The notes under the pieces: model-generated
Seen by the model: only the letters and a program-made list of their open reading frames with translations
Database searches by the model: none
Told to the model about the DNA's origin: nothing
Made by a program: the position numbers and the translations under genes
NCBI GenBank assembly: GCA_001789695.1
Contig: MGAI01000017.1
Span: forward strand, 1 to 32,785
Reading direction: 5' to 3'
DNA: 32,785 nt
Origin: Candidatus Roizmanbacteria bacterium RIFCSPLOWO2_01_FULL_37_16
GTDB lineage: Bacteria > Patescibacteriota > Microgenomatia > UBA1406 > GWC2-37-13
Shown: in pieces, positions 14,704-28,046 of the stretch
Position numbering within the stretch: the first letter of the stretch is position 1
How the letters are laid out: each line of letters starts with the position of its first letter

Positions 14704-17058
14704 CTATAATCTAGCCCTTTGAGCGACCTCTGCCTCCACCAGTTCTTTAGGGCGACCATATTTTAAGCGTGAAAGCTGGATGACTGCCTGAGAGATTTTC
14801 TCATTTGCTAAGGTCCGAAGTTTTTTCATATCCTTGGTCATGTCGACTGAAAAAGGCGGAACTGGCTCGTTGTCAACGATCGTCTTCATATAGGCATGAA
14901 ATCTCTCTACATTAATTAGGTCTGATTCTGAAAAAATTGGCTGATACTCCCTCTGAAGATAAGATGCGTCAGTAACTCCTACCCTAAAACTAATGAGCGT
15001 ACCTACATTGCCAAATACGGCATTTTTGACTTCCTCGTCCATCTGGCCTATAAATTGATTTGCCACAGTCAAATTCAGGTGATATTTTCTAGCCTCTGAC
15101 AGAATCGTCGCAAAATCTGGGGTGGCAAAATTTTGAAACTCGTCCACATATAAAAAGAAATCCCGCCTCTGTGGCTCTGGAGTCTCTTGTCGACTCATTG
15201 CAGCAACTAATATTTTTGGAATTAAAACCAACCCCAAAAAACTGGAGTTTTCCTCCCCAAGCTTTCCTTTTGACAAATTGATTAGAAGAATTTTCCCCTC
15301 ATCCATACACTTTCGAAAATCAAAAGCACTCTTTGACTGTCCGATGATATTTCGCATGGTTTTATTTGTGACGAAGCGGCCAAATTTGGAGACGATGTAA
15401 TCGAGAACTTCTGATTTGTGAAAATCTGACGTTTGAGCTATCTGGTCAGTCCAGTAGCGACGTACAATAGGATCTTGCACTTTGGGAAGTAACTCTTGGA
15501 CATATTTTGGATCCGTCAAAACCCGCACCACCTCAACAAACGTCGATCCCGGCTCAGACATCACAGTAAGCATGGCGTTTCGCACTGCGTGTTCAAATCT
15601 GGGACCTATGATTCCAGTTCTTTGGGGGTCGTATAGTTTATACATAAGATTGATAATTGCCGTGGTCATAAAGTGTTTTTGTTCCTCGCTATAAGCTTCA
15701 AGAAGATTTAAGCCCATCGGCCGCTCAGTATCTGAGGGATCAAAATAAATAACATCCTCTGCCCGCTCTGGAGGAGTATATTTGATGATGTCGTCTATCA
15801 AATCACCGTGAGGATCGATGACGCAAACTCCATGTCCGGCTCTCACATCTTGAATAGCCATATCTTGAAGAAGAACCGACTTGCCAACGCCGGTCTTGCC
15901 TATGATATAGACATGGCGGCGCCGATCTTCAAAACCGATATTCACCGATCTTTTTGTACCTCGATAATATCCGTAACCTACGAAAGTTCCACCCGTCTGA
16001 AGCACATCTGCTGGAACAGGTCCTGTCTTTGCTTTAAGCCAGTTGATGTGTGGAGTCTCAACAGTTTTATTGGGGAAGTGAAACACCGTAGCCAGCTCGT
16101 CAGAGGATAAAATCGAGATTGATCTAAATAATGGCAATTCAAATACTGGAAAAAATTTGTAAATAAAGTTGATCATATATCCGCCTTTAAAAAGAACGCG
16201 CGTTCCTTTGAGACTATTTAAGTCCGAGTTAAATTGGGAAAATGCCGTCTTGATATTGCGAATGTGTATATCTGCGGCTTCTTTTGTTTTTGCTGATACG
16301 ACAAAACGGATGGCTGTCTGAAAACCTTGTTTTGAACTTTTCTCGTCGATCTTATCTAAAACCTTAGGATCAGTCTTAAAAGTTGCTTTCTCAGGATTAG
16401 CCTCAGTCTTTTTTGTCGAAGCAACATATGATTTACCCAACTTTTTCCATTTCGAGTCGGCTGGCCGGATCAATATCTGCACCATCGCTCCCTCATCGTC
16501 TCCCATTTTTGAAAGAGCAGAGGTTATTGTCGCCAGCGAGTCGGATGGTAAATCTTTAAATAGTTTTAAAGGCATATAGGAGTAATCCTTTGTAACCAGG
16601 GCGCCGAAAGACACTTTCCCCTCCTCGGAGAATATATTTGGCTCGTCAACTTTTCTGATGTCTGCTGAAGGATAATAACTATAGATGGTCTTTTCTACCA
16701 AATCGACGATGCGTGCAGGAGCTGAAACATAAAACCGGATGTCAGCCTTTTTACCTACAATCTCAAAGGCCAAAACATCGTCAAGATCAAAAGCAGAAAG
16801 CCAACCGGACTTTTTTAGAGAAGCAAAAGAGGTAAACATCTGTTCAGCTACGTCGATTTTTATTTCATTATCCTTAGGCGTCTTAACTTCCAACGTCACC
16901 ATCTCCAATGAAATTTGTTCTCTTTTTTTTAGACGAAGAAAAATAATAACCAGGTAAAGAACAAGAAAGGTCAAGCCGGCTGCGCTAAGGGCTGCTATAA
17001 GAGCTAAAATAAAAGCAATTGCTCTTTCAATTATGGTTTGTGGTTCAAATAGGTCCAT
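14704..17058 (-). CDS. VirD4/TraG-like type IV secretion coupling ATPase
   Basis: The protein has 784 residues. One or two N-terminal TM segments (about residues 10-45) are followed by a long alpha/beta region and then a FtsK/HerA-type motor. Walker A is GKTGVGKS (387-394), 'VCVIDPHGD' follows, Walker B is 'FFLYVDEFQNF' (VDEF at 638-641), and 'TVANQFIGQM' resembles sensor motifs of conjugative coupling proteins. Family members pump DNA or protein into a type IV secretion channel. The start at 17058 is preferred over 17097 because a TATAAT lies 6 nt upstream of this ATG and the longer form would run back through that promoter. VirB4 and PrgI partners are encoded at 19375-22755. No relaxase is seen in the window. 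Confidence 0.88.
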   Translation of the reverse strand: MDLFEPQTIIERAIAFILALIAALSAAGLTFLVLYLVIIFLRLKKREQISLEMVTLEVKTPKDNEIKIDVAEQMFTSFASLKKSGWLSAFDLDDVLAFEIVGKKADIRFYVSAPARIVDLVEKTIYSYYPSADIRKVDEPNIFSEEGKVSFGALVTKDYSYMPLKLFKDLPSDSLATITSALSKMGDDEGAMVQILIRPADSKWKKLGKSYVASTKKTEANPEKATFKTDPKVLDKIDEKSSKQGFQTAIRFVVSAKTKEAADIHIRNIKTAFSQFNSDLNSLKGTRVLFKGGYMINFIYKFFPVFELPLFRSISILSSDELATVFHFPNKTVETPHINWLKAKTGPVPADVLQTGGTFVGYGYYRGTKRSVNIGFEDRRRHVYIIGKTGVGKSVLLQDMAIQDVRAGHGVCVIDPHGDLIDDIIKYTPPERAEDVIYFDPSDTERPMGLNLLEAYSEEQKHFMTTAIINLMYKLYDPQRTGIIGPRFEHAVRNAMLTVMSEPGSTFVEVVRVLTDPKYVQELLPKVQDPIVRRYWTDQIAQTSDFHKSEVLDYIVSKFGRFVTNKTMRNIIGQSKSAFDFRKCMDEGKILLINLSKGKLGEENSSFLGLVLIPKILVAAMSRQETPEPQRRDFFLYVDEFQNFATPDFATILSEARKYHLNLTVANQFIGQMDEEVKNAVFGNVGTLISFRVGVTDASYLQREYQPIFSESDLINVERFHAYMKTIVDNEPVPPFSVDMTKDMKKLRTLANEKISQAVIQLSRLKYGRPKELVEAEVAQRARL

Positions 17059-17064
17059 AGAAAA

Positions 17065-17074
17065 ATTATATAAT
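17065..17074. promoter_or_regulatory. Divergent overlapping -10 boxes between virD4-like gene and the TPR-like gene
   Basis: The palindrome ATTATATAAT (17065-17074) contains TATAAT on both strands. On the minus strand it ends 6 nt before the virD4-like ATG (17058), which predicts a leaderless mRNA. On the plus strand it lies 21 nt before ATG 17096. No convincing -35 was found for either direction. Confidence 0.5.
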
Positions 17075-17095
17075 AATAACCACACAACATAAAAC

Positions 17096-17512
17096 ATGAA
17101 ACATTTGACCTATTCTCTTTTAAAAATCTTGGCAATAATTTTCTTTTTTTCTTTTCTGGTTCTTAATTTAACTTTAAGCCAGTATATCTCACCGCTTTAC
17201 TTTCAATTAATGAAAGAAGATAAAAACGCAGCTATTAGATTTTTAAGCAAAATAAAAAATTTACCCTACTTTCTCCCTCTGCTTGAGGTGAATAAAAATA
17301 TCTATGACAATTCGTTAGAACAAGAGGTTTTTGCTGAAGATATAAAAAGAAAAAAAATAATCAGCCAATTTGAATCATTACTGCAAAAAAACCCGAAATC
17401 AAGAGATATATTATACAATCTTTACTTACTTCATAATGAAGATGGAAATAAAATTATGGCGCAAGAATATCTAAGAAGAGCAAAAGAGATTGATCCTTCT
17501 ATTGATAAATAA
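17096..17512 (+). CDS. Small membrane-anchored protein with TPR-like C-terminus
   Basis: A 138-residue protein with one N-terminal hydrophobic segment (about 5-30). A helical, Lys-rich region of about 80 residues follows, and it ends with a TPR-like repeat ('DILYNLYLLHNEDGNKIMAQEYLRRAKEIDPS'-type pattern, residues about 102-136). TPR units usually mediate protein contacts, so it may act as a small membrane scaffold. It is divergent from the virD4-like gene with 37 nt between starts. I do not recognise a named family. Confidence 0.65.
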   Translation: MKHLTYSLLKILAIIFFFSFLVLNLTLSQYISPLYFQLMKEDKNAAIRFLSKIKNLPYFLPLLEVNKNIYDNSLEQEVFAEDIKRKKIISQFESLLQKNPKSRDILYNLYLLHNEDGNKIMAQEYLRRAKEIDPSIDK

Positions 17513-19374: not shown

Positions 19375-21135
19375 CTACTCTATTAGGGCTCTCTCTTCTT
19401 CCGAGGCTATCACCCGAAAACCAACATGCGAATGACCGGCGAAAAAAAGTCCTTCGCCAACACCCGCTGATAAAAGGAAGTGTTTTTCTCCACCTGTTAA
19501 ATAAAAAGTCTGGGAAATCTTATCGACTGCAGCGGTTGACTGTTTTAAGATAATCTGAAGGCTTGAGTTTGTGATAATCGCCTTTCCCTCGTCGGTTGAT
19601 AAGAAATCTTCAACGTCTTGGGTAATTGTGGTTAAACCAAGTTGGTATTTTCTGGCGCGCTTAGCAAAACTGTGTAAATAAGCTCCCGAATCTTTTTGTT
19701 TTATGAGATACCATGCCTCATCGACAATTAGTGCCCTTTTTCTTCTATCTTTTCTCACCCGATTCCAGATATAATCTAAAACAATATACATAGCAACAGG
19801 TCTTAGGTTTTCTTCAAGGTCTCTAATGCCAAAAACCGTGAATGGGTTTTTAATGTCAAAGTTGGACTGCTGGTTAAAAATACCAGCCGCCGATCCTTTG
19901 ACAAATTTCTCCAACCTATCAGCCATCTCTTTTGCCTCTGGCGTCTCCATGCCGATAAAAATTTTGTATAGATCTTCCAAAAGCGGCGGTTCGTTTTTAA
20001 ATGTCTCAATGTCTTGAGTGATTCCTTTCTCTCTATAAGTAAGAACCAGTGCCCTATCCAAGAGTGCGTCTTGCGAAGGGGTCAAATCTCCCATGATCAC
20101 TTTCATCAGCGAATGGAGATCAAGAATCTTATTGGAAAGTTCGTCTGGTTCAGGATTAGCTGTTGCCAAATCGAAGGGATTAATTTTATATTGAGAACTG
20201 GTCGAAAATACCACAAACTCTCCGCCGACAGACTGGGTTAATTTCTGATACTCGTTCTCTGGATCAATTATCAAAACATCAACACCCATCATAAGAAGCC
20301 TCAGAGATTCGAGTTTAACCAAGAAACTTTTACCCCCACCTGACTTGCCTAAAATCACTGAGTTTGCATTCTCTAAAGTAAATCGATCAAAAATAATCAG
20401 GCTGCCATCGTGTTGATTAATACCATATAAGATTCCTTCATTTTTTGTCAAAGAGGCTGTGGCAAAAGGAAATGTCATCGCCAAAGAAGTGGTGTCAACA
20501 TTTCTCCAAACGCTTAACTTGTCATAGAACATCGGTAGAGTTGACTTAAACCCTTCCTCCATCTCTAAAGTTGCCTGTTTGGCAATAATTAAAAGCGAGG
20601 AAAGAACCGAGTCAATCTCTTTGCTTACCCTGTCTAGCTCTTCCAGGCTTTCTGCTGGGACGGTAATGTAAAGACCAAACTGGAAAAAACGCTCGGCTCC
20701 CTTAGCTAGCTCTGCCTGAAGAGCTAAAGCGTCATCAAGTGCTACTTGGACAGCTGGATCAACAACCTTTCCAGCTTTAATATCGCCTTCTATCGTTGCC
20801 TCCATTTCAGCGATTTTTCTTTTTAGGTCGTCCAAAACCGCTTTTGCCTCGGTAGGATAAATATACATGGCAACGTATAAGGGGTGATCAAATGTGATCA
20901 AAGGATAAAGCCAGTTGGCAGAAACGTAACGCGGATATCCAACCACATAAAAAGTCCTGTAATATTTGTCGTCCACCCTTAGGTGATTAAAATCTACCTC
21001 AATAAATGAAGGCGCAATGATATCCTTTATCGAGATTGCACCTTTGGCCAAAAATTCCGCTACATTTTGCGATGGCGGCAGGTTGGCTGGTTTTCCTTTG
21101 CTATTATTGCTTTTTTTCCCAAATAAATTTAACAT
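19375..21135 (-). CDS. VirB4/TraC-like type IV secretion ATPase (motor part)
   Basis: A 586-residue ATPase. A short Asn/Lys/Pro-rich N-terminus is followed by a helical/beta region ('KYYRTFYVVGYPRYV' at about 57-71, typical of the VirB4 N-domain) and a coiled-coil-like stretch (about 95-150). The HerA/VirB4 motor has Walker A 'GKSGGGKS' (263-270), 'DPENEY' (291-296) and Walker B 'LIVDEAWYLI' (469-478). VirB4 ATPases power pilus or channel assembly and substrate transfer at the inner membrane. The upstream 218-residue gene, 1 nt away, supplies what looks like the missing front part of the N-terminal domain; together they sum to about 800 residues, the usual VirB4 size. Confidence 0.88.
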   Translation of the reverse strand: MLNLFGKKSNNSKGKPANLPPSQNVAEFLAKGAISIKDIIAPSFIEVDFNHLRVDDKYYRTFYVVGYPRYVSANWLYPLITFDHPLYVAMYIYPTEAKAVLDDLKRKIAEMEATIEGDIKAGKVVDPAVQVALDDALALQAELAKGAERFFQFGLYITVPAESLEELDRVSKEIDSVLSSLLIIAKQATLEMEEGFKSTLPMFYDKLSVWRNVDTTSLAMTFPFATASLTKNEGILYGINQHDGSLIIFDRFTLENANSVILGKSGGGKSFLVKLESLRLLMMGVDVLIIDPENEYQKLTQSVGGEFVVFSTSSQYKINPFDLATANPEPDELSNKILDLHSLMKVIMGDLTPSQDALLDRALVLTYREKGITQDIETFKNEPPLLEDLYKIFIGMETPEAKEMADRLEKFVKGSAAGIFNQQSNFDIKNPFTVFGIRDLEENLRPVAMYIVLDYIWNRVRKDRRKRALIVDEAWYLIKQKDSGAYLHSFAKRARKYQLGLTTITQDVEDFLSTDEGKAIITNSSLQIILKQSTAAVDKISQTFYLTGGEKHFLLSAGVGEGLFFAGHSHVGFRVIASEEERALIE

Positions 21136-21136
21136 A

Positions 21137-21793
21137 TTAACCCGTAGTCAATACGACGTCGGTATAACTCTCAACTGGCGCCATCCTCTTACCTGTTGGT
21201 GAAGAATTGTATAGATTAAAAAACAACTCAACCAATTCCTGTCGCTGCAAGATGCTTACCCTAAGACCTATCTTTGATAAAAGGCGGATAAGATGGTCTC
21301 GTTTAGGATAAAGCGAGGTTTTGGCGCGGCTTATGACATACTCTTTATTTAGACTCTTAGTGTTTACACCCGACACTCCCATTTCCAGAGTTGAAAAAGG
21401 CACAACAAAAAAAAATCTTTTTTCCAAAACCGTATTTTTTTTGACTATGGTCTTAATAAACTCCTTATAGCTTTGAAGCCTATTTTTGATAAGCTCCACC
21501 TGTTGTAGAATAATCTTTCCCTGTAAATAATCAAGATATAACGAAACATCCATCTTCTTAGACAAGATCAAAATTTGGGTGGGGAACGATAAAGAATTTA
21601 AAAGACCTGCGTATGAATAGATCATAGCTGACTGTTCCTCAACTGATAAAAGCCAAAAATTTACCGCCCCAACTTCGATAACCACACAGGCAGAAAAATC
21701 TTTCATCAAGATGATGTCATCTCTTATTTCCTCAATCTCAACGAACGCTTGGGTTGAGGCCTTAACTGGTGATGTTGGTTTACTCGTTGGCAT
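21137..21793 (-). CDS. Detached VirB4/TraC N-terminal domain-like protein
   Basis: The 218-residue protein reads 'VEIEEIRDDIILMKDFSACVVIEV', then 'NFWLLSVEEQSAMIYSYAGLLNSLSFPTQILILSKK' as a pattern around residues 20-90. This resembles the start of TraC/VirB4-type proteins (strand, 'S-x-x-E-Q', 'LNSL-x-F-P-x-Q'). The middle is helical and basic. It has no ATPase motifs. It lies directly before the VirB4-like motor and after PrgI in the same strand. A TATTAT 7 nt before the ATG is a possible leaderless promoter. The most likely role is a partner subunit of the motor protein. Confidence 0.7.
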   Translation of the reverse strand: MPTSKPTSPVKASTQAFVEIEEIRDDIILMKDFSACVVIEVGAVNFWLLSVEEQSAMIYSYAGLLNSLSFPTQILILSKKMDVSLYLDYLQGKIILQQVELIKNRLQSYKEFIKTIVKKNTVLEKRFFFVVPFSTLEMGVSGVNTKSLNKEYVISRAKTSLYPKRDHLIRLLSKIGLRVSILQRQELVELFFNLYNSSPTGKRMAPVESYTDVVLTTG

Positions 21794-21942
21794 AATAAAT
21801 ATAATACGAATGATGCGAACTTACTTACGCAAGCAAGTCTTTATGCAAATGCCGCGAATTATCCTAATTCAGATTTTATTCGCACCAAGTCAGACTTGGT
21901 TCGCATAATTAGCATCATTTGCATGTCATTCGTAGATTGGCA
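21794..21942. repeat. Structured noncoding spacer with nested inverted repeats
   Basis: The 149-nt spacer contains several perfect inverted repeats. They are ACCAAGTCAGACTTGGT at 21884-21900, GAATTA-TCC-TAATTC at 21856-21870, ATGCAAATG at 21843-21851 with CATTTGCAT at 21916-21924, and TACGAATGA at 21805-21813 with TCATTCGTA at 21926-21934. The left arm TACGAATGATGCGAAC (21805-21820) is complementary piecewise to three right-hand segments. It contains no ORF. It could be an RNA structure within the prgI-virB4 transcript, a decayed MITE, or a recombination site. Confidence 0.6.
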
Positions 21943-22755
21943 TTATATTAGTTCCTTAGAAAAGAACTCGAAAGGCTTTAGATTTGATTCTTCGATTCTC
22001 AATTTTATTGTATCAAAAAAGTAAGTGTTCTTTGGATCCTTAAACTCAAATAGATAATCCGATTGCGGCAGAGGTTTGAGCGTCCCAAACACTCCATGGG
22101 GATTAGTTTTCAAAAGACGAACCACATTCCCCTGACCGTCTTTCACATAAATTAAAACACCAGGCAGAGGAATAAGCCTGTGATTTTTTACAATGCCAGA
22201 AAAGAATGGTTTGGTCGGGGCTGGTTGTATTTTTTTCACAACCACATTTGGAATAGCTGGTTTTTGGGGGGCTTTTTTTTGCTCAATTAATGCCTCCTTT
22301 GGCTTCTGGAGGAGAACGGCAATTGATTGTTTTTTACGGTTAGGAGAGGGTAGATTAGATTTTGTTTTTGCCAAGTAGGCTGAGAGCTTCTCTTGTGATT
22401 CAATATGACTCATAACGCGGTGAGGGTCGTTGACGAAAAACAGATTTTTTAAAAAATAGATGGGTGGATTTTTCTTGTGATAAATATATTGGGTTGGGGA
22501 AGTGAGTCTTCTGACAAGATTTTTTATCCAGGTGTCTAATGGCCGGTCGTTTACTGGCACAAAGGCAAGAGCTGGACCCATTGCTCCCACTATCACGCCA
22601 ACTAGAAGATTAAGTAGTGGAATAGGAGTAAGTTTATAGGCTATAAATCCAAGCGGAATAAAAATGACAAAATAAATAAACTGTTTTAGGGTGAGAAAGC
22701 CAACTAGTTTAAATTCAAAAGTAGTTATCTGCCTTGGCATTGGGTGCTGTTCCAT
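21943..22755 (-). CDS. PrgI-family membrane protein with C-terminal beta-sandwich-like domain
   Basis: Residues 1-100 match the PrgI pattern: 'FKLVGFLTLKQFIYF', two TM helices (about 26-42 and 45-66), 'AFVPVNDRPLDTWIKNL' and 'RRLTSPTQYIYHKK'. PrgI proteins are inner-membrane parts of Gram-positive-type T4SS, acting beside VirB4. A Lys/Pro-rich linker (about 130-180) leads to a C-terminal domain (about 183-265: 'FSGIVKNHRLIPLPGVLIYVK', 'TNPHGVFGTLKPLPQSDYLFEF' patterns). This looks like a carboxypeptidase-regulatory/prealbumin-like beta fold. That domain is not part of classical PrgI. The gene precedes the VirB4 pair on the same strand. Confidence 0.83.
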   Translation of the reverse strand: MEQHPMPRQITTFEFKLVGFLTLKQFIYFVIFIPLGFIAYKLTPIPLLNLLVGVIVGAMGPALAFVPVNDRPLDTWIKNLVRRLTSPTQYIYHKKNPPIYFLKNLFFVNDPHRVMSHIESQEKLSAYLAKTKSNLPSPNRKKQSIAVLLQKPKEALIEQKKAPQKPAIPNVVVKKIQPAPTKPFFSGIVKNHRLIPLPGVLIYVKDGQGNVVRLLKTNPHGVFGTLKPLPQSDYLFEFKDPKNTYFFDTIKLRIEESNLKPFEFFSKELI

Positions 22756-22878
22756 AGATATCAGTATTTAGTATAAAGTATTTAGTATTCAGAATAAAGA
22801 AACATGGTTTGGAGCGAAAGAAAGAAAAAAAGATGGTGTATTTATACTAGATACTATATACTTGATACTTTATACTAA
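22756..22878. repeat. Spacer of degenerate ATACT-type repeats with a 14-bp inverted repeat
   Basis: TTAGTATAAAGTAT (22768-22781) is the exact reverse complement of ATACTTTATACTAA (22865-22878), and both sit in longer runs of TAGTATTTAG / TACTAGATACT variants. The right arm includes the stop codon of the S1-domain gene (22875-22877). In RNA the minus-strand transcript could form a long hairpin between the S1 gene and prgI, acting as a terminator or processing site. No U-tract follows, so intrinsic termination is uncertain. Confidence 0.6.
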
Positions 22879-23942
22879 CGATAGGTTACTGGTTTTTCTT
22901 TCTGGGGGAGAAGCAAACTCATGCGCCGGCTCTTCTTGTTGATTTTTTCAATGAAGACTCTCACTTCTTGTCCTGGTTCAAGTTTTTCTTCTCCGCTTAG
23001 TTTACTTATGTGAATTAAACCCTCTATGCCTGGCTCCAGCCGAACAAAATAGCCATATTTTTCTCTTCTTACTATTGCCCCTTTTACTTCTTTATCTTTG
23101 GGATATTTTTTCTCGATGTCTTCCCAAGGGTCATTTGTCAATCGTTTAAGAGAAAGGTTGAGTTTTGCGTCGGTGAGATTTTTTTCAACCACCACCACCT
23201 TGACTATATCGCCCGGTTTGACAAATTCAGAGGCGTTGGCGACTTTTTCCCAAGAAATTTCTGATATATGAATAAGCCCCTCTACACCGTCAACTTCGCA
23301 AAATGCGCCAAATTCTGAGACTCCCAGAATTTTGGCTTTATAGGTTTTTCCTTCACTGATCTTGTCAAATTTTTCTTTTAGCTCTTTTTGCGAAATCCCC
23401 AAAGCTGCAGCTTTTTGTGAAACAACCAGTCGGTTTTTCTCTTCGTCAACCTCAAGAATTCTCACCTTAATTTTTTGATTGGTCAATTTCTCTGGCTGAC
23501 TAATGTATGGTTCGGTTAACTGAATCTTAGGGATAACTCCCCTAATTCCCATAAAGTCAGCAAAAACCCCTCCTTTACCATAATCTCCACAGACAACTTC
23601 GATGTCCTCCTCTTTTTCTTTCTTTGCTTTCAAAATCTCCCACTTTCCTTTTTGAAAAAATTTTTTCATCGATACCACTGGATAGCCATCTTTAGATTCA
23701 ACCGCCACAACTCTAACCTTTATTTTGTTTCCTGCTTTTAAATATGGTAGATAGGTGGAGATTTCTTTGACTTCCAAATCGCCTAAAACAGCGTACGCCT
23801 TTGCTCCTATATCAAACAAAACCCCTTTTTTTGATAAAGAAATGATTGTCGCCGCAAGCTCTTGACTCTTACTAATTTTGGGTGGACTATTTGTTTTAAG
23901 TAAAACATCCATCGGGTGAGTAGATTTTTTTGTTTTAGTCAT
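22875..23942 (-). CDS. rpsA: S1-domain RNA-binding protein, ribosomal protein S1 type
   Basis: The 355-residue protein has four S1 (OB-fold) domains. The first is degenerate (about 30-85, 'KKGVLFDIGAKAYAVL'), the second is about 95-160 ('GKGGVFADFMGIRGVIPK'), the third about 195-265 ('SEFGAFCEVDGVEGLIHIS') and the fourth about 280-345 ('YGYFVRLEPGIEGLIHIS'). Ribosomal S1 brings mRNA to the 30S subunit. Four domains is the short form common outside Proteobacteria. It has a canonical promoter and the strongest Shine-Dalgarno in the window, unlike many neighbours with leaderless-type promoters. Confidence 0.87.
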   Translation of the reverse strand: MTKTKKSTHPMDVLLKTNSPPKISKSQELAATIISLSKKGVLFDIGAKAYAVLGDLEVKEISTYLPYLKAGNKIKVRVVAVESKDGYPVVSMKKFFQKGKWEILKAKKEKEEDIEVVCGDYGKGGVFADFMGIRGVIPKIQLTEPYISQPEKLTNQKIKVRILEVDEEKNRLVVSQKAAALGISQKELKEKFDKISEGKTYKAKILGVSEFGAFCEVDGVEGLIHISEISWEKVANASEFVKPGDIVKVVVVEKNLTDAKLNLSLKRLTNDPWEDIEKKYPKDKEVKGAIVRREKYGYFVRLEPGIEGLIHISKLSGEEKLEPGQEVRVFIEKINKKSRRMSLLLPQKEKPVTYR

Positions 23943-24029: not shown

Positions 24030-24058
24030 TTGAATTTTTAAGCTTGATTTAGTATATT
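24030..24058 (+). promoter_or_regulatory. Promoter of the recombinase-like gene
   Basis: TTGAAT (24030-24035), 17 nt, then TATATT (24053-24058) lies 11 nt before ATG 24070, predicting an mRNA with a leader of only a few bases. It is back to back with the S1 promoter. Confidence 0.55.
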
Positions 24059-24069
24059 ATGGGATTAAT

Positions 24070-24933
24070 ATGGATACGCTCCTTCTTCCGAGCCTGTTGG
24101 ATAAGTTTGTTACCCATCTCAAGACACAGGAAAAATCCGAGTTCACCATCATAGCCTATAAAAAGGACCTTGAGCAGTTTGTGGGATTTTTAACCAGTAA
24201 AGAAAAAAATGACATTCGGGAGGTTAAAAAAGACGATATTGATGGCTTTATTAATAAGCTATTGCAAGAAAATTATACCAAAAAATCTGCTTCACGTAAG
24301 CTCAACTCTATCCGCACCTTTTTCCGTTATTTAAAAAATGAGGAAATTATAGAGCAAAATCCCTCTCTTGATGTGTCTCACCCCAAATACGGTCAAGCTC
24401 CGCCTCGTATTTTTAGCAAACTTGAATATAGGGCACTTCGCGACGTTGGTAAAGAAGATCCTAGAACCTATGCTTTAATCGAAATTCTTCTCCAAACCGG
24501 TATCAAAATAGGAGAGATCGCAAATCTTCGCCTCTCAGATCAAGAAGATGACAATCTTCGAATTAGGACTTACGGTAAAAATCCTGAAAGAAAAGTTCCC
24601 TTAAACAAAGCAGCAAAAAAGGCTATCGCTGAATATTTAAGAATTAGGGGAACCACCGCCCAAGACGACCATCTTTTTATCACGCGCACTGGCCACCCGC
24701 TTCTTATTAGAAACATTCGCCAGATTATTGCTCGCTGTTTTAGGGAGGTCGGCATTGAAAACGCCACCGTCAACGACCTGAGAAATACTTTTATAGCTTA
24801 TCAACTAATAAACGGCGCTTCGGTTGAGTATATAGCTAAAATCGTAGGCCACCGCAGGCTTTCTTCAACCGAACGGTTTTTAAACCTGGTAAAAGAAGAA
24901 GCGGATAGAAAAGAACGCTTAGGACAACTATAA
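24070..24933 (+). CDS. XerC/D-like tyrosine recombinase homologue lacking catalytic residues
   Basis: The 287-residue protein has the SAM-like N-terminal core-binding domain (about 8-95) and the integrase catalytic domain (about 110-280) with normal XerC/D spacing. Compared with E. coli XerD (known catalytic Arg148, Lys172, His244, Arg247, His270, Tyr279), Lys170, Arg238 and His261 are kept. The first Arg is Lys146 ('GIKIGEIANL'), the His of HxLR is Asn235 ('VNDLRNTF'), and the nucleophile Tyr is Phe270 ('STERFLNL'). There is no other Tyr after His261. It should bind DNA but not cleave it, so a structural or regulatory role is inferred. It is followed 9 nt later by the RNase HI gene. Confidence 0.87.
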   Translation: MDTLLLPSLLDKFVTHLKTQEKSEFTIIAYKKDLEQFVGFLTSKEKNDIREVKKDDIDGFINKLLQENYTKKSASRKLNSIRTFFRYLKNEEIIEQNPSLDVSHPKYGQAPPRIFSKLEYRALRDVGKEDPRTYALIEILLQTGIKIGEIANLRLSDQEDDNLRIRTYGKNPERKVPLNKAAKKAIAEYLRIRGTTAQDDHLFITRTGHPLLIRNIRQIIARCFREVGIENATVNDLRNTFIAYQLINGASVEYIAKIVGHRRLSSTERFLNLVKEEADRKERLGQL

Positions 24934-25446: not shown

Positions 25447-26541
25447 TTATTCTTGTATTCTCACCGGCATAATGATGTGAAGAAAGTCTCTGTCTTTATC
25501 TGTTTTAAAAACAACCGGCGCGTCTGGTCTTAAAATTTCAATGATGATGTTTTTGCAGTCAACAACATTTAAAAGATCTAATAAAAATTTGTAATTAAAA
25601 GCTGCCTTCTGCTCCTCTCCCTCAACCTCACCATCTTGAAACGCGCTGTTTTCCTCGCCTTGTGTAGCTTTTGGCATAAATCTGACCCCATTCTTCTTCA
25701 CGTCTAAAATAATGACGTTTGAGAGATCTCGGGCAAAAACAGAGATGAGTTTTGTATTTCTCAAAAACTCTTCTTTCTCAAGTGTGACCGTTGTTTTTTT
25801 TTCTTGTGGGATGACTTTTTCAAATGGAGGAAAATCTCCCTCGATCAGTCGCGAATAAAACTCTGTTTCTCCCGCCTTAAATACAATAACCTTCTCTTTG
25901 CTTGAGTAAGCAAAATCTACCTCTTTTTCTTCTTTGATAAAATGGGTGATTTCTCGTAGAAAGTCAGCGGGCAAAATCACCGAGGGAAGCTTATCTTCTT
26001 TCTTTACCTTAACTAAAGAAAGCCTAAATCCGTCAGTAGACACCAGTGTTAACTCGTCGTTTGTGAGAAAATTTATCCCTGATAGTGCGGGGCGAGTCTC
26101 GTCTGTTGCGGCTGAAAAAAGCACGAGCGGCAATTTGCTGATTAAAAATTCTGTTTTTAATTTTTGTTCCTTCTCTTCTATTTTGGGAGGCAGCGGAAAA
26201 TCTTTTGCCTCCATTAGGGGGAAATTCCCCTTCGTTTTACCCGCGCTGATAAAGAGCTGTTTGTTTTTTATCTCTAGTTCTATCTCTGTCTCGGCTAAAA
26301 AAGATAAAAACTCGATTATTTTCTTAGGTTCAGTCAAAAAGTCTTCACCGCTTTTTAGTTCGCCAAGCAGACTAGTGTGAAAAAAAGCATTGAGATTGCT
26401 CGCGTAAAGATGTAGTTTTTCTTTATCTACTCTGAGATATACCCCCTGCAGAATAGGAAGTGAGGAAAGTTTGGTTGAAGTAAAACGCGCTGCAAGCGAT
26501 AGTTTATCTAAAAAGATCTCTTTTTTGAATTTTGCCTTCAT
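25447..26541 (-). CDS. dnaN: DNA polymerase III beta subunit (sliding clamp)
   Basis: A 364-residue protein with the three-domain clamp layout. Domain 1 begins 'MKAKFKKEIFLDKLSLAARF'-like; the middle has 'ETRPALSGINFL' and 'TLVSTDGFRLSLVKV', a strong DnaN signature; the C-terminus is 'IIMPVRIQE', where the family ends with the 'MP(M/V)R' strand that forms part of the peptide-binding cleft. It tethers polymerase to DNA. It follows dnaA on the same strand as in many bacteria. Confidence 0.95.
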   Translation of the reverse strand: MKAKFKKEIFLDKLSLAARFTSTKLSSLPILQGVYLRVDKEKLHLYASNLNAFFHTSLLGELKSGEDFLTEPKKIIEFLSFLAETEIELEIKNKQLFISAGKTKGNFPLMEAKDFPLPPKIEEKEQKLKTEFLISKLPLVLFSAATDETRPALSGINFLTNDELTLVSTDGFRLSLVKVKKEDKLPSVILPADFLREITHFIKEEKEVDFAYSSKEKVIVFKAGETEFYSRLIEGDFPPFEKVIPQEKKTTVTLEKEEFLRNTKLISVFARDLSNVIILDVKKNGVRFMPKATQGEENSAFQDGEVEGEEQKAAFNYKFLLDLLNVVDCKNIIIEILRPDAPVVFKTDKDRDFLHIIMPVRIQE

Positions 26542-26675
26542 ATTTTCATGTCACTTTTAGTATTTTAATATTTTATATTAGTAGTATTAGTAATTGGGCA
26601 TAAGTGTATAAAAAAAGACAGGGATTTTCAAGACGACAAGATTGAAAAAAAAACAGTGTTGAAACGATGTGAAAT
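26542..26675. other. dnaA-dnaN spacer with candidate origin unwinding element
   Basis: The spacer is very AT-rich. Five trinucleotides TAG-TAG-TAT-TAG-TAA (26579-26593) are followed by a small G/C cluster TTGGGCA and then AGTGTATAA (26603-26611), which is TTATACACT on the other strand, 8 of 9 to the DnaA box TTATACACA. This order of DnaA-trio, GC cluster and box is like the basal unwinding system known from Bacillus subtilis between dnaA and dnaN. Only one near-consensus box was found, so the origin call is tentative. Confidence 0.4.
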
Positions 26676-28016
26676 TCATGTTGATAGATTCAATGATTGG
26701 ATAATCTGATCAACCTCTCTTTTGATGAGAGGGTCTTTAGCTGTAAGTCTGTTAATTTTGTCTATTGCATGCATTACCGTGGTGTGGTCCTTCCTTTTTA
26801 AAAAAAAAGCAATTTCACTAAGCTTCATTTTAAGGTAATTTCTCAAAATAAACATAGCAACCTGACGAGGAAGGACAACATTGCTTGTTCTTAAACCGCT
26901 TTTAAGGTGAGAGGGACGGATATTATAAAAAGAACTAACCGTTTTTAACACATCTTGTGGAAGAAGTTTATTGGCCAAGGCCTCCTGCTTTTTTGAAAAA
27001 AAAGCCCTAACAGATTCAAAGTCGATAAATTCTTTATTACCCAACACCTTCGAATAGAGCGTGAGAAGCGTTCCTTCAAGTTCGCGGGAGTCAGAGACGC
27101 GTTCGGCTATAGCTTTTGCTGACTCAATATCAATCTCGATATTTTTTTCCCTAGCCTTGATGAGAAGAATGGCGGTGCGCAGTTCAAAATCCGGCGGTTG
27201 AATGTCGACGATTAGCCCACCCGAAAAACGAGAGCGGAGCCTGTCCTCAAGATTTTTAATTTGGGAGGGGGGTTGGTCCGCCGTGAGAATTACTTGTCCG
27301 CCGGCAGAAACAAGTGAGTTAAACGTATGAAAAAACTCTTCCTGCACTTTTTCTTTTCCGGCAATAAATTGAACATCGTCAAGGATAAGCAGATTTAAGC
27401 GGCGGTATTTTCTACGGAAACCCGGCGTTGATTTTTCTCTAATTGACTCGATGAGTTCATTGGTAAATTGGTCGCTGGGACAAAAAAAAATTTTTTTATC
27501 CTGGTCTTTTTCTAAGACGTTTCTGCCAATTGCTTGAGCGAGGTGTGTTTTTCCCACCCCAACCCCCCCATACAAAAGCAAAGGGTTATAGGCGTGACCT
27601 AGGCCATTTGTTACCGCCTGGGCGGCGGCATGGGCAACTTGGTTGGTGGAGGAGACAGCAAAATTGTCAAAGCTGTATTTTGACAAAAGCCCGGTTTTAT
27701 AGTATAGATCGCTTAGGGTTGGTTGAAAATTCAAAAGAGGCGCGTCTTTGGGTCTTTTTTTAGTTGAAGTTACTGAGAGTTCTATCCTTATCCTTTTTCC
27801 GGCTTGTTCCGAAAGAGAATCTTCCAACTCCTCGTGCGGTTTTCCTTTATCTAGGTAAAACTTAAGGCCTTGGTTTTGACAACTTAAAACAATCTTCTCT
27901 TCGGTTAATTCTACTGGATGGATTTGTTTTAAAAGAGGAAAAAGAAGAGGGTATTTTTTTTGATTTTTTGCTATAGATTCGATAAATTGGTCCCAAAAAG
28001 AGGATAGTATAGACAT
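26676..28016 (-). CDS. dnaA: Chromosomal replication initiator DnaA
   Basis: A 446-residue AAA+ protein that opens the origin. Domain I is about 1-75. The AAA+ domain has Walker A 'GGVGVGKTH' (150-158), Walker B 'ILDDVQF' (211-217) and an Arg-finger region 'DRLRSRFSGG'. Domain IV ends with the DNA-binding signature DHTTVMHA (410-417). ATG 28016 (MSILSSF) is the start; a longer TTG form from 28046 would translate through the DnaA-box pair and -10 region. Promoter and boxes directly upstream indicate autoregulation. Confidence 0.96.
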   Translation of the reverse strand: MSILSSFWDQFIESIAKNQKKYPLLFPLLKQIHPVELTEEKIVLSCQNQGLKFYLDKGKPHEELEDSLSEQAGKRIRIELSVTSTKKRPKDAPLLNFQPTLSDLYYKTGLLSKYSFDNFAVSSTNQVAHAAAQAVTNGLGHAYNPLLLYGGVGVGKTHLAQAIGRNVLEKDQDKKIFFCPSDQFTNELIESIREKSTPGFRRKYRRLNLLILDDVQFIAGKEKVQEEFFHTFNSLVSAGGQVILTADQPPSQIKNLEDRLRSRFSGGLIVDIQPPDFELRTAILLIKAREKNIEIDIESAKAIAERVSDSRELEGTLLTLYSKVLGNKEFIDFESVRAFFSKKQEALANKLLPQDVLKTVSSFYNIRPSHLKSGLRTSNVVLPRQVAMFILRNYLKMKLSEIAFFLKRKDHTTVMHAIDKINRLTAKDPLIKREVDQIIQSLNLST

Positions 28017-28026
28017 GTGTAATATA

Positions 28027-28045
28027 TGTGGATAACTTATCCACA
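28027..28045. promoter_or_regulatory. Perfect inverted pair of DnaA boxes in the dnaA leader
   Basis: TGTGGATAACTTATCCACA is a 19-bp palindrome made of two consensus boxes (TTATCCACA) facing each other around one base. It lies right after the dnaA -10 box and before the start codon, so bound DnaA would block its own transcription. It may also belong to the replication origin. Confidence 0.85.
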
Positions 28046-28046
28046 A

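Follow-up and report, generated by a model that had tools for sequence, protein, structure and literature searches.

The window, a single stretch of 32,785 nucleotides from a Candidatus Roizmanbacteria (Microgenomates) contig, carries a gene for a Xer-type tyrosine-recombinase paralogue between a type IV secretion-like cluster and the replication genes dnaN (0.5 kb downstream) and dnaA (1.7 kb downstream). The genes of the locus are as follows.

14704-17097, minus strand: VirD4/TraG-like ATPase, whose homologues adjoin the paralogue in many other families
19375-22755, minus strand: VirB4-like ATPase, a small protein and PrgI, a type IV secretion-like cluster
22875-23942, minus strand: divergent neighbour of the ribosomal protein S1 type, assigned from sequence
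24070-24933, plus strand: coding sequence of the Xer-type paralogue, 287 aa, without three catalytic residues
24943-25350, plus strand: rnhA, RNase HI
25447-26541, minus strand: dnaN; the window's cumulative GC skew is lowest around 25-26 kb, the putative oriC region
26676-28046, minus strand: dnaA, with overlapping DnaA boxes TTATCCACA at 28027-28045

Domain analysis of the open reading frame at 24070-24933 revealed an N-terminal SAM-like domain (Pfam PF02899, residues 10-91, 4.4e-17) and a Phage_integrase domain (PF00589, residues 128-274, 8.3e-23, 81.5 bits against a gathering score of 27.1); both the PF00589 score and the fold place the protein in the tyrosine recombinase superfamily. In an alignment with E. 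coli XerD, three catalytic positions are changed (R148 to K146, H244 to N235 and Y279 to F270) and two are retained (R247 as R238, H270 as H261), while the beta2-beta3 lysine most likely persists as K170, the hairpin around it having one residue fewer than in XerD. No tyrosine lies C-terminal to H261 in the 287-aa protein. A preliminary description of this DNA had reported the same three replacements in a XerC/D homologue, no tyrosine past His261 and an intact frame at these coordinates, all of which the alignment and the translated frame bear out; Lys170 was absent from it and is added here. The key positions are listed below, with residue counts among the 146 distinct family members of the survey described further on.

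24274-24339, plus strand: helix D (residues 69-90) of the core-binding domain, in which R76, K77 and N79 hardly vary
24505-24507, plus strand: codon K146, Arg-I position of Xer, placed by XerD alignment and orthologue counts (R 80, K 64, T 1, G 1)
24577-24579, plus strand: codon K170, probable beta2-beta3 lysine, retained here and gone in most distant orthologues
24772-24774, plus strand: codon N235, His-II position (N 139, Q 6, H 1)
24781-24783, plus strand: codon R238, Arg-II (R in 146/146)
24850-24852, plus strand: codon H261, His/Trp-III position, retained
24877-24879, plus strand: codon F270, nucleophile position (Y 78, F 67)
24928-24930, plus strand: codon of the C-terminal Leu287 (final residue Leu in 141/145 orthologues)

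The replacement of three catalytic residues could in principle mark a pseudogene in decay or a sequencing error, the latter suspected at 24877-24879. The window's genome was compared with 56 relatives; of these 57, 54 gave a match to the paralogue and 52 carried a clear orthologue with an open frame, at 42-100% identity; identity was 82-90% in named Candidatus Roizmanbacteria relatives and 66-78% across most of the window's family. Phe270 recurs in same-genus orthologues at 84-90% identity and is therefore not a base-calling error. In pairwise comparisons across the same genome pairs within the family, the paralogue was conserved about as well as the canonical Xer or better, and better than dnaN, dnaA, rnhA and S1; against the nearest relative it reached 90%, compared with 82% for Xer, 78% for dnaN, 76% for dnaA, 69% for rnhA and 86% for S1. 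Non-synonymous differences amounted to 0.05-0.18 per site, with synonymous sites near saturation. This pattern indicates that the paralogue is under strong purifying selection and not decaying, in agreement with its earlier designation as a conserved protein. Identical residues in same-genus species, open frames in relatives and purifying selection together rule out decay or error, to which we give a negligible probability.

To trace the family more widely, we surveyed 381 genomes of the phylum, taking scores above about 250 bits as orthologues. Almost every member of the class had one, as did members of about 20 families beyond it, and a wide score gap set these proteins apart from other Xer matches. 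In a tree of 113 proteins, one branch (SH-aLRT 97) separates 90 paralogue members from the canonical Xer proteins that these genomes also encode. None of the 146 members has the full R-K-H-R-H-Y set, so that the catalytically normal orthologues envisaged by the preliminary description as a sign of decay were not found. The best explanation is an ancient, vertically inherited, chromosomal relative of Xer.

The catalytic changes differ in age. Asn or Gln occupies position 235 in 145/146 members, whereas Tyr-to-Phe and Arg-to-Lys are mainly limited to the window's order, Tyr being mostly retained elsewhere (family-wide weighted conservation 90% for Tyr and 82% for Arg-I). Most members of the window's family read K-K-N-R-H-F and most members outside its order R-x-N-R-H-Y, with the lysine gone; about nine members, such as L093 and L202, have only His-II replaced. 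Exchanges between Tyr and Phe occurred at least four times on the tree, with one apparent reversal to Tyr inside the window's family. Judged from this distribution, His-to-Asn is an old family signature, and Tyr and Arg-I were lost at a later stage and locally. Conservation of Phe270 and Asn235 across species, the check proposed in the preliminary description, holds for Asn235 and, for Phe270, mainly within this order; the three replacements are all present in this copy but arose at different times, His-to-Asn being the oldest.

The survey also returned atypical copies. Two genomes carry second, more degenerate copies (K/G-N-R-Y-F) beside a normal orthologue (L128, G174:C30; L129, G106:C1). 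L130, L131 and L132 (family f65) belong to a side branch, distant from the rest; their catalytic positions read K-F-R-H-Y, their neighbours are different, and one of the three matches contains an internal TAA. L182 (DYJZ01000057.1), a contig titled Thermoanaerobaculum aquaticum, bears a Roizmanbacteria-type orthologue at 71% identity and is probably a mislabelled record or a contaminated bin.

What these replacements imply for chemistry can be gauged from Cre, in which K201A, R173A and Y324F abolish recombination while DNA binding and synapsis persist, and in which H289A still recombines (PMC4381057). Because Cre(H289A) recombines, His-to-Asn alone is no proof of inactivity, and the roughly nine members with only the histidine replaced, which may still be active, confine a non-cutting claim to the window's order. 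For the family as a whole, we claim that the cutting chemistry appears to be under relaxed or lost selection. The window's protein is without a nucleophile, so cutting is not expected, and it should not cleave strands. Within its order, these residues point with good confidence to a conserved, non-cutting, DNA-binding paralogue.

Structural prediction is consistent with DNA binding. An AlphaFold2 monomer model (pLDDT 87.7) was superposed best by Foldseek on DNA-bound lambda Int (TM 0.74-0.78), and also on Tn1549 integrase complexes, with XerA as the best match by E-value (Foldseek E down to 5e-16). On this model, the two domains of the paralogue would form a C-clamp around DNA, as those of lambda Int or Cre do when bound. 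Helix D and the catalytic-domain region considered here contact DNA in XerD and Cre. In 41 effective sequences (weighted), helix D residues R76, K77 and N79 are conserved at 98% where canonical Xer has Y, F/H and I/V, and catalytic-domain residues T205, R214, N215 and R217 at 98-100% where canonical Xer has R, R, S and E. Reading positions that are near-invariant yet altered predict one conserved site unlike that of canonical Xer; the paralogue would read it through the core-binding helix D and the catalytic-domain helix, neither of which matches its counterpart in the cell's canonical Xer. The C-terminal end of Xer proteins mediates contacts between protomers, and the conserved C-terminal Leu suggests that the free C-terminus is perhaps recognised by a partner or a neighbouring protomer, through which the paralogue may oligomerise. 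Asp236, considered as a further invariant, was dropped, since HDLRH is common among integrases.

Comparison with known systems sets the family apart. With XerC/XerD, the single-Xer XerA and XerH, the paralogue shares the two-domain fold, the length, the catalytic spacing and a housekeeping-type chromosomal gene; it differs from XerC/XerD in its broken catalytic set, its separate clade and its other DNA-reading residues. It falls well short of the curated XerC/XerD cut-offs (158 of 329.6 and 156 of 335 bits) and of that for XerA (132 of 220 bits). The streptococcal XerD-like protein (PRK02436 / NF002685) is likewise a Xer homologue with replaced active-site residues, its gene lying next to the segregation genes scpA/scpB, but it belongs to another phylum and another gene context, and membership was rejected at 35.6 bits against a cut-off of 178. 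A mobile-element integrase was also rejected, the paralogue being chromosomal, nearly always single and flanked by conserved neighbours; among viral sequences, only two distant relatives (28%) were found. PADLOC returned no match to a defence system. Chain 14 of PDB 9i5v, named RaiA (401 aa), was dropped as a lead: its N-terminal 285 residues are a Xer-type recombinase with the usual motifs, including HxLRH and Tyr, and the chain is apparently a fusion or a joined gene model.

Analogies of function lie further afield. Yeast Ndc10, of the CBF3 kinetochore, has a non-cutting, tyrosine-recombinase-related DNA-binding domain and serves segregation (Perriches and Singleton 2012, as cited in PMC6077249); it resembles the proposed role of the paralogue, but is eukaryotic and not encoded next to an origin, and the likeness is one of analogy only. 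Crypton tyrosine recombinases were domesticated in ancient times (PMC3212892), from eukaryotic transposons, whereas the paralogue is bacterial and chromosomal. ParB has an origin-proximal DNA-binding role like the one proposed here, with no relation in sequence or fold. We found no papers on this Xer paralogue family in Patescibacteria in a search that left out most subscription journals.

The window's genome (1.14 Mb in 60 contigs, 93% complete) also contains the second, intact Xer gene that the preliminary description had suggested seeking: a protein encoded at G000:C53:3041-3766 has all six catalytic residues (R-K-H-R-H-Y). FtsK is encoded as well. Most genomes carry both paralogue and canonical Xer, and a few nearly complete ones show only the paralogue (G394 and G327, both 98% complete). 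In 12 genomes, matches to the classical dif consensus were no commoner than in a reversed control.

Several Xer genes in the survey have unusual architectures. In a complete Roizmanbacteria genome (L324, G030:C1, about 885568-887361), the canonical Xer is a 736-aa frame in which an apparent intein, with a Cys-Leu start and a His-Asn end before Ser, splits the catalytic LRH(S/C) motif. In family f38 (L307, L308, L309 and L327), canonical Xer proteins of 436-487 aa have insertions in the core-binding and catalytic domains. At L003 (G000:C38:1350-1655 and downstream), a Xer-type N-terminal SAM-like domain is part of a fusion that also comprises a membrane segment and a surface protein with collagen repeats; comparable N-terminal-only matches lie inside long reading frames in G001, G002, G004 and G054.

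Upstream of the paralogue, the following elements were recognised.

24030-24035, plus strand: probable -35 TTGAAT, 17 bp before the -10, with TTG(A/C)NN as its equivalent in orthologues
24050-24063, plus strand: conserved promoter element TAGTATATTATGGG (TRRTATATTATRGG), candidate operator
24053-24058, plus strand: probable -10 TATATT, with the start codon 11 nt downstream

The family shares this layout (TTG(A/C)NN, about 17 bp, TATATT, ATRGG, a few nucleotides, ATG), and conservation of the -35 and -10 supports the earlier proposal that the gene has its own promoter. With the start codon so near the -10, the mRNA is probably leaderless. TATTATAGG precedes the paralogue in 60/71 orthologues, a conservation similar to that of the DnaA box upstream of dnaA (39/45), and no comparable upstream element was found at S1, PrgI, VirB4 or rnhA. 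The window's genome has a single copy of the 14-mer TRRTATATTATRGG and relatives have 0-2 each, nearly always at the paralogue gene; G011 has a second, inverted copy overlapping the end of a VirD4-like gene 0.8 kb upstream. Among 7-mers in the corresponding regions of distant families, CCTATAA shows the strongest enrichment (20/62 against 3.3 expected), and CCTATAR is enriched in the intergenic region shared by ftsB and xer in other families.

Because the element and the -10 overlap, promoter function accounts for some of the element's conservation; at four loci (L055, L084, L088 and L114) it is reversed inside the -35/-10 spacer, which -10 function alone would not explain. The simplest reading of these patterns is an operator for autoregulation, with the paralogue as the presumed binder, although another regulator could bind there. 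The paralogue would then be likely to bind TATATTATRGG / CCTATAR, the element that covers its promoter, and may in this way repress its own gene. We hold this assignment of the paralogue to its own promoter tentatively, at somewhat less than even odds. With about one copy per genome, the element is more in keeping with an operator than with a function as a centromere or in the nucleoid, and the nucleoid factor suggested in the preliminary description is accordingly not favoured.

The genomic setting of the paralogue varies between lineages. In the complete relative G030, the GC skew reverses within a span of about 75 to 95 kb that includes the paralogue (86.5 kb); together with the skew of the window, this places the paralogue at the origin in Roizmanbacteria. 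The region upstream of dnaN (26542-26675) contains an element, TTATACACTTA, that is found in 40/45 orthologous regions and is distinct from the DnaA box, a possible origin element. Outside the window's family, 65/76 members have a divergent DivIC/FtsB septum-formation gene (PF04977) beside the paralogue, often with a VirD4/TraG-like ATPase on the other side. In Roizmanbacteria ftsB lies elsewhere, the pairing having been lost in the window's own family, and the promoter element is absent directly upstream of Roizmanbacteria ftsB. Proximity to dnaA and dnaN, as first described, therefore stands for Roizmanbacteria, but elsewhere the constant neighbour is the divergent ftsB/divIC. No genome of the window's order (G000-G047) appears to encode a chromosomal-type ParB apart from the contaminated G033, in which the paralogue itself was not found; 8/9 other class members tested do encode one. 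This relation between ParB absence and the paralogue is correlative and depends on one or two evolutionary events.

Collectively, these data are best explained by a Xer paralogue that binds specific DNA sequences without cutting them, probably regulates its own expression and links chromosome and division, a reading to which we assign a probability of about 0.6. It draws on features read from the sequences themselves: loss of catalytic residues, conservation, a single clade, altered DNA-reading positions, the promoter element and gene pairing. The proposed role is chromosome organisation or segregation coupled to division, suggested by the divergent ftsB/divIC pairing across the phylum and by the oriC position in ParB-less Roizmanbacteria; taken by itself, this role is possible but doubtful.

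Other readings share part of this evidence. The paralogue might instead be a transcription regulator of a small regulon (itself, ftsB/divIC and perhaps VirD4) with no direct role in chromosome structure, as divergent pairing is typical for regulators and the element lies at its own promoter, in the shared ftsB-xer region and, at some loci, flipped within the spacer. The displaced Roizmanbacteria ftsB, with no element immediately upstream, and the near confinement of the exact 14-mer to the xer gene would reduce such a regulon mainly to the paralogue itself, and we regard this reading as unlikely. Slightly less likely is an inactive partner of the canonical Xer that would occupy one dif arm in a heterotetramer and regulate the active Xer and FtsK, in the manner of XerC/XerD mutual regulation. 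A six-residue Xer and FtsK are at hand, most genomes hold both proteins and the conserved C-terminal end corresponds to the one through which Xer protomers touch; but the divergent DNA-reading residues would require adjacent arms of differing sequence, the classical consensus revealed no dif-like site above the control level in 12 genomes, G394 and G327 show the paralogue alone, and strand exchange, which takes two rounds, could not be finished by a dead protomer.

In a further reading, the protein of many clades, with His-II changed to Asn and Tyr kept, is still a recombinase of residual or altered activity, which Roizmanbacteria lost only recently. This would accommodate the Arg-I, Arg-II, His-III and Tyr of most members outside the order, the activity of Cre(H289A) (PMC4381057) and the genomes in which the paralogue is perhaps the sole Xer. 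The beta2-beta3 lysine, essential in Cre, is nevertheless gone in most of those members, and Tyr and Phe interchange within the order, with one reversal; we consider this reading less probable again than a partner role. The boldest form of the preferred reading, that of a non-cutting DNA-binding paralogue linking chromosome and division, would run as follows: in Roizmanbacteria and allied ParB-less families, the oriC-encoded protein might bind origin-proximal DNA as a segregation or origin-anchoring factor coupled to the divisome, which we think improbable. If true, bacteria would possess an equivalent of Ndc10, in which a recombinase has become a centromere protein.

To our knowledge, chromosome organisation and segregation in the ultra-small Patescibacteria, with their reduced chromosomes, are largely unknown. 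A protein better conserved than DnaN or DnaA, present class-wide and in many other families, evidently matters there, and its Xer-like sequence can be expected to invite annotation as an ordinary recombinase. If our reading is correct, it would represent a bacterial enzyme family that has lost its chemistry and kept a dedicated DNA site, and the candidate site makes this directly testable.
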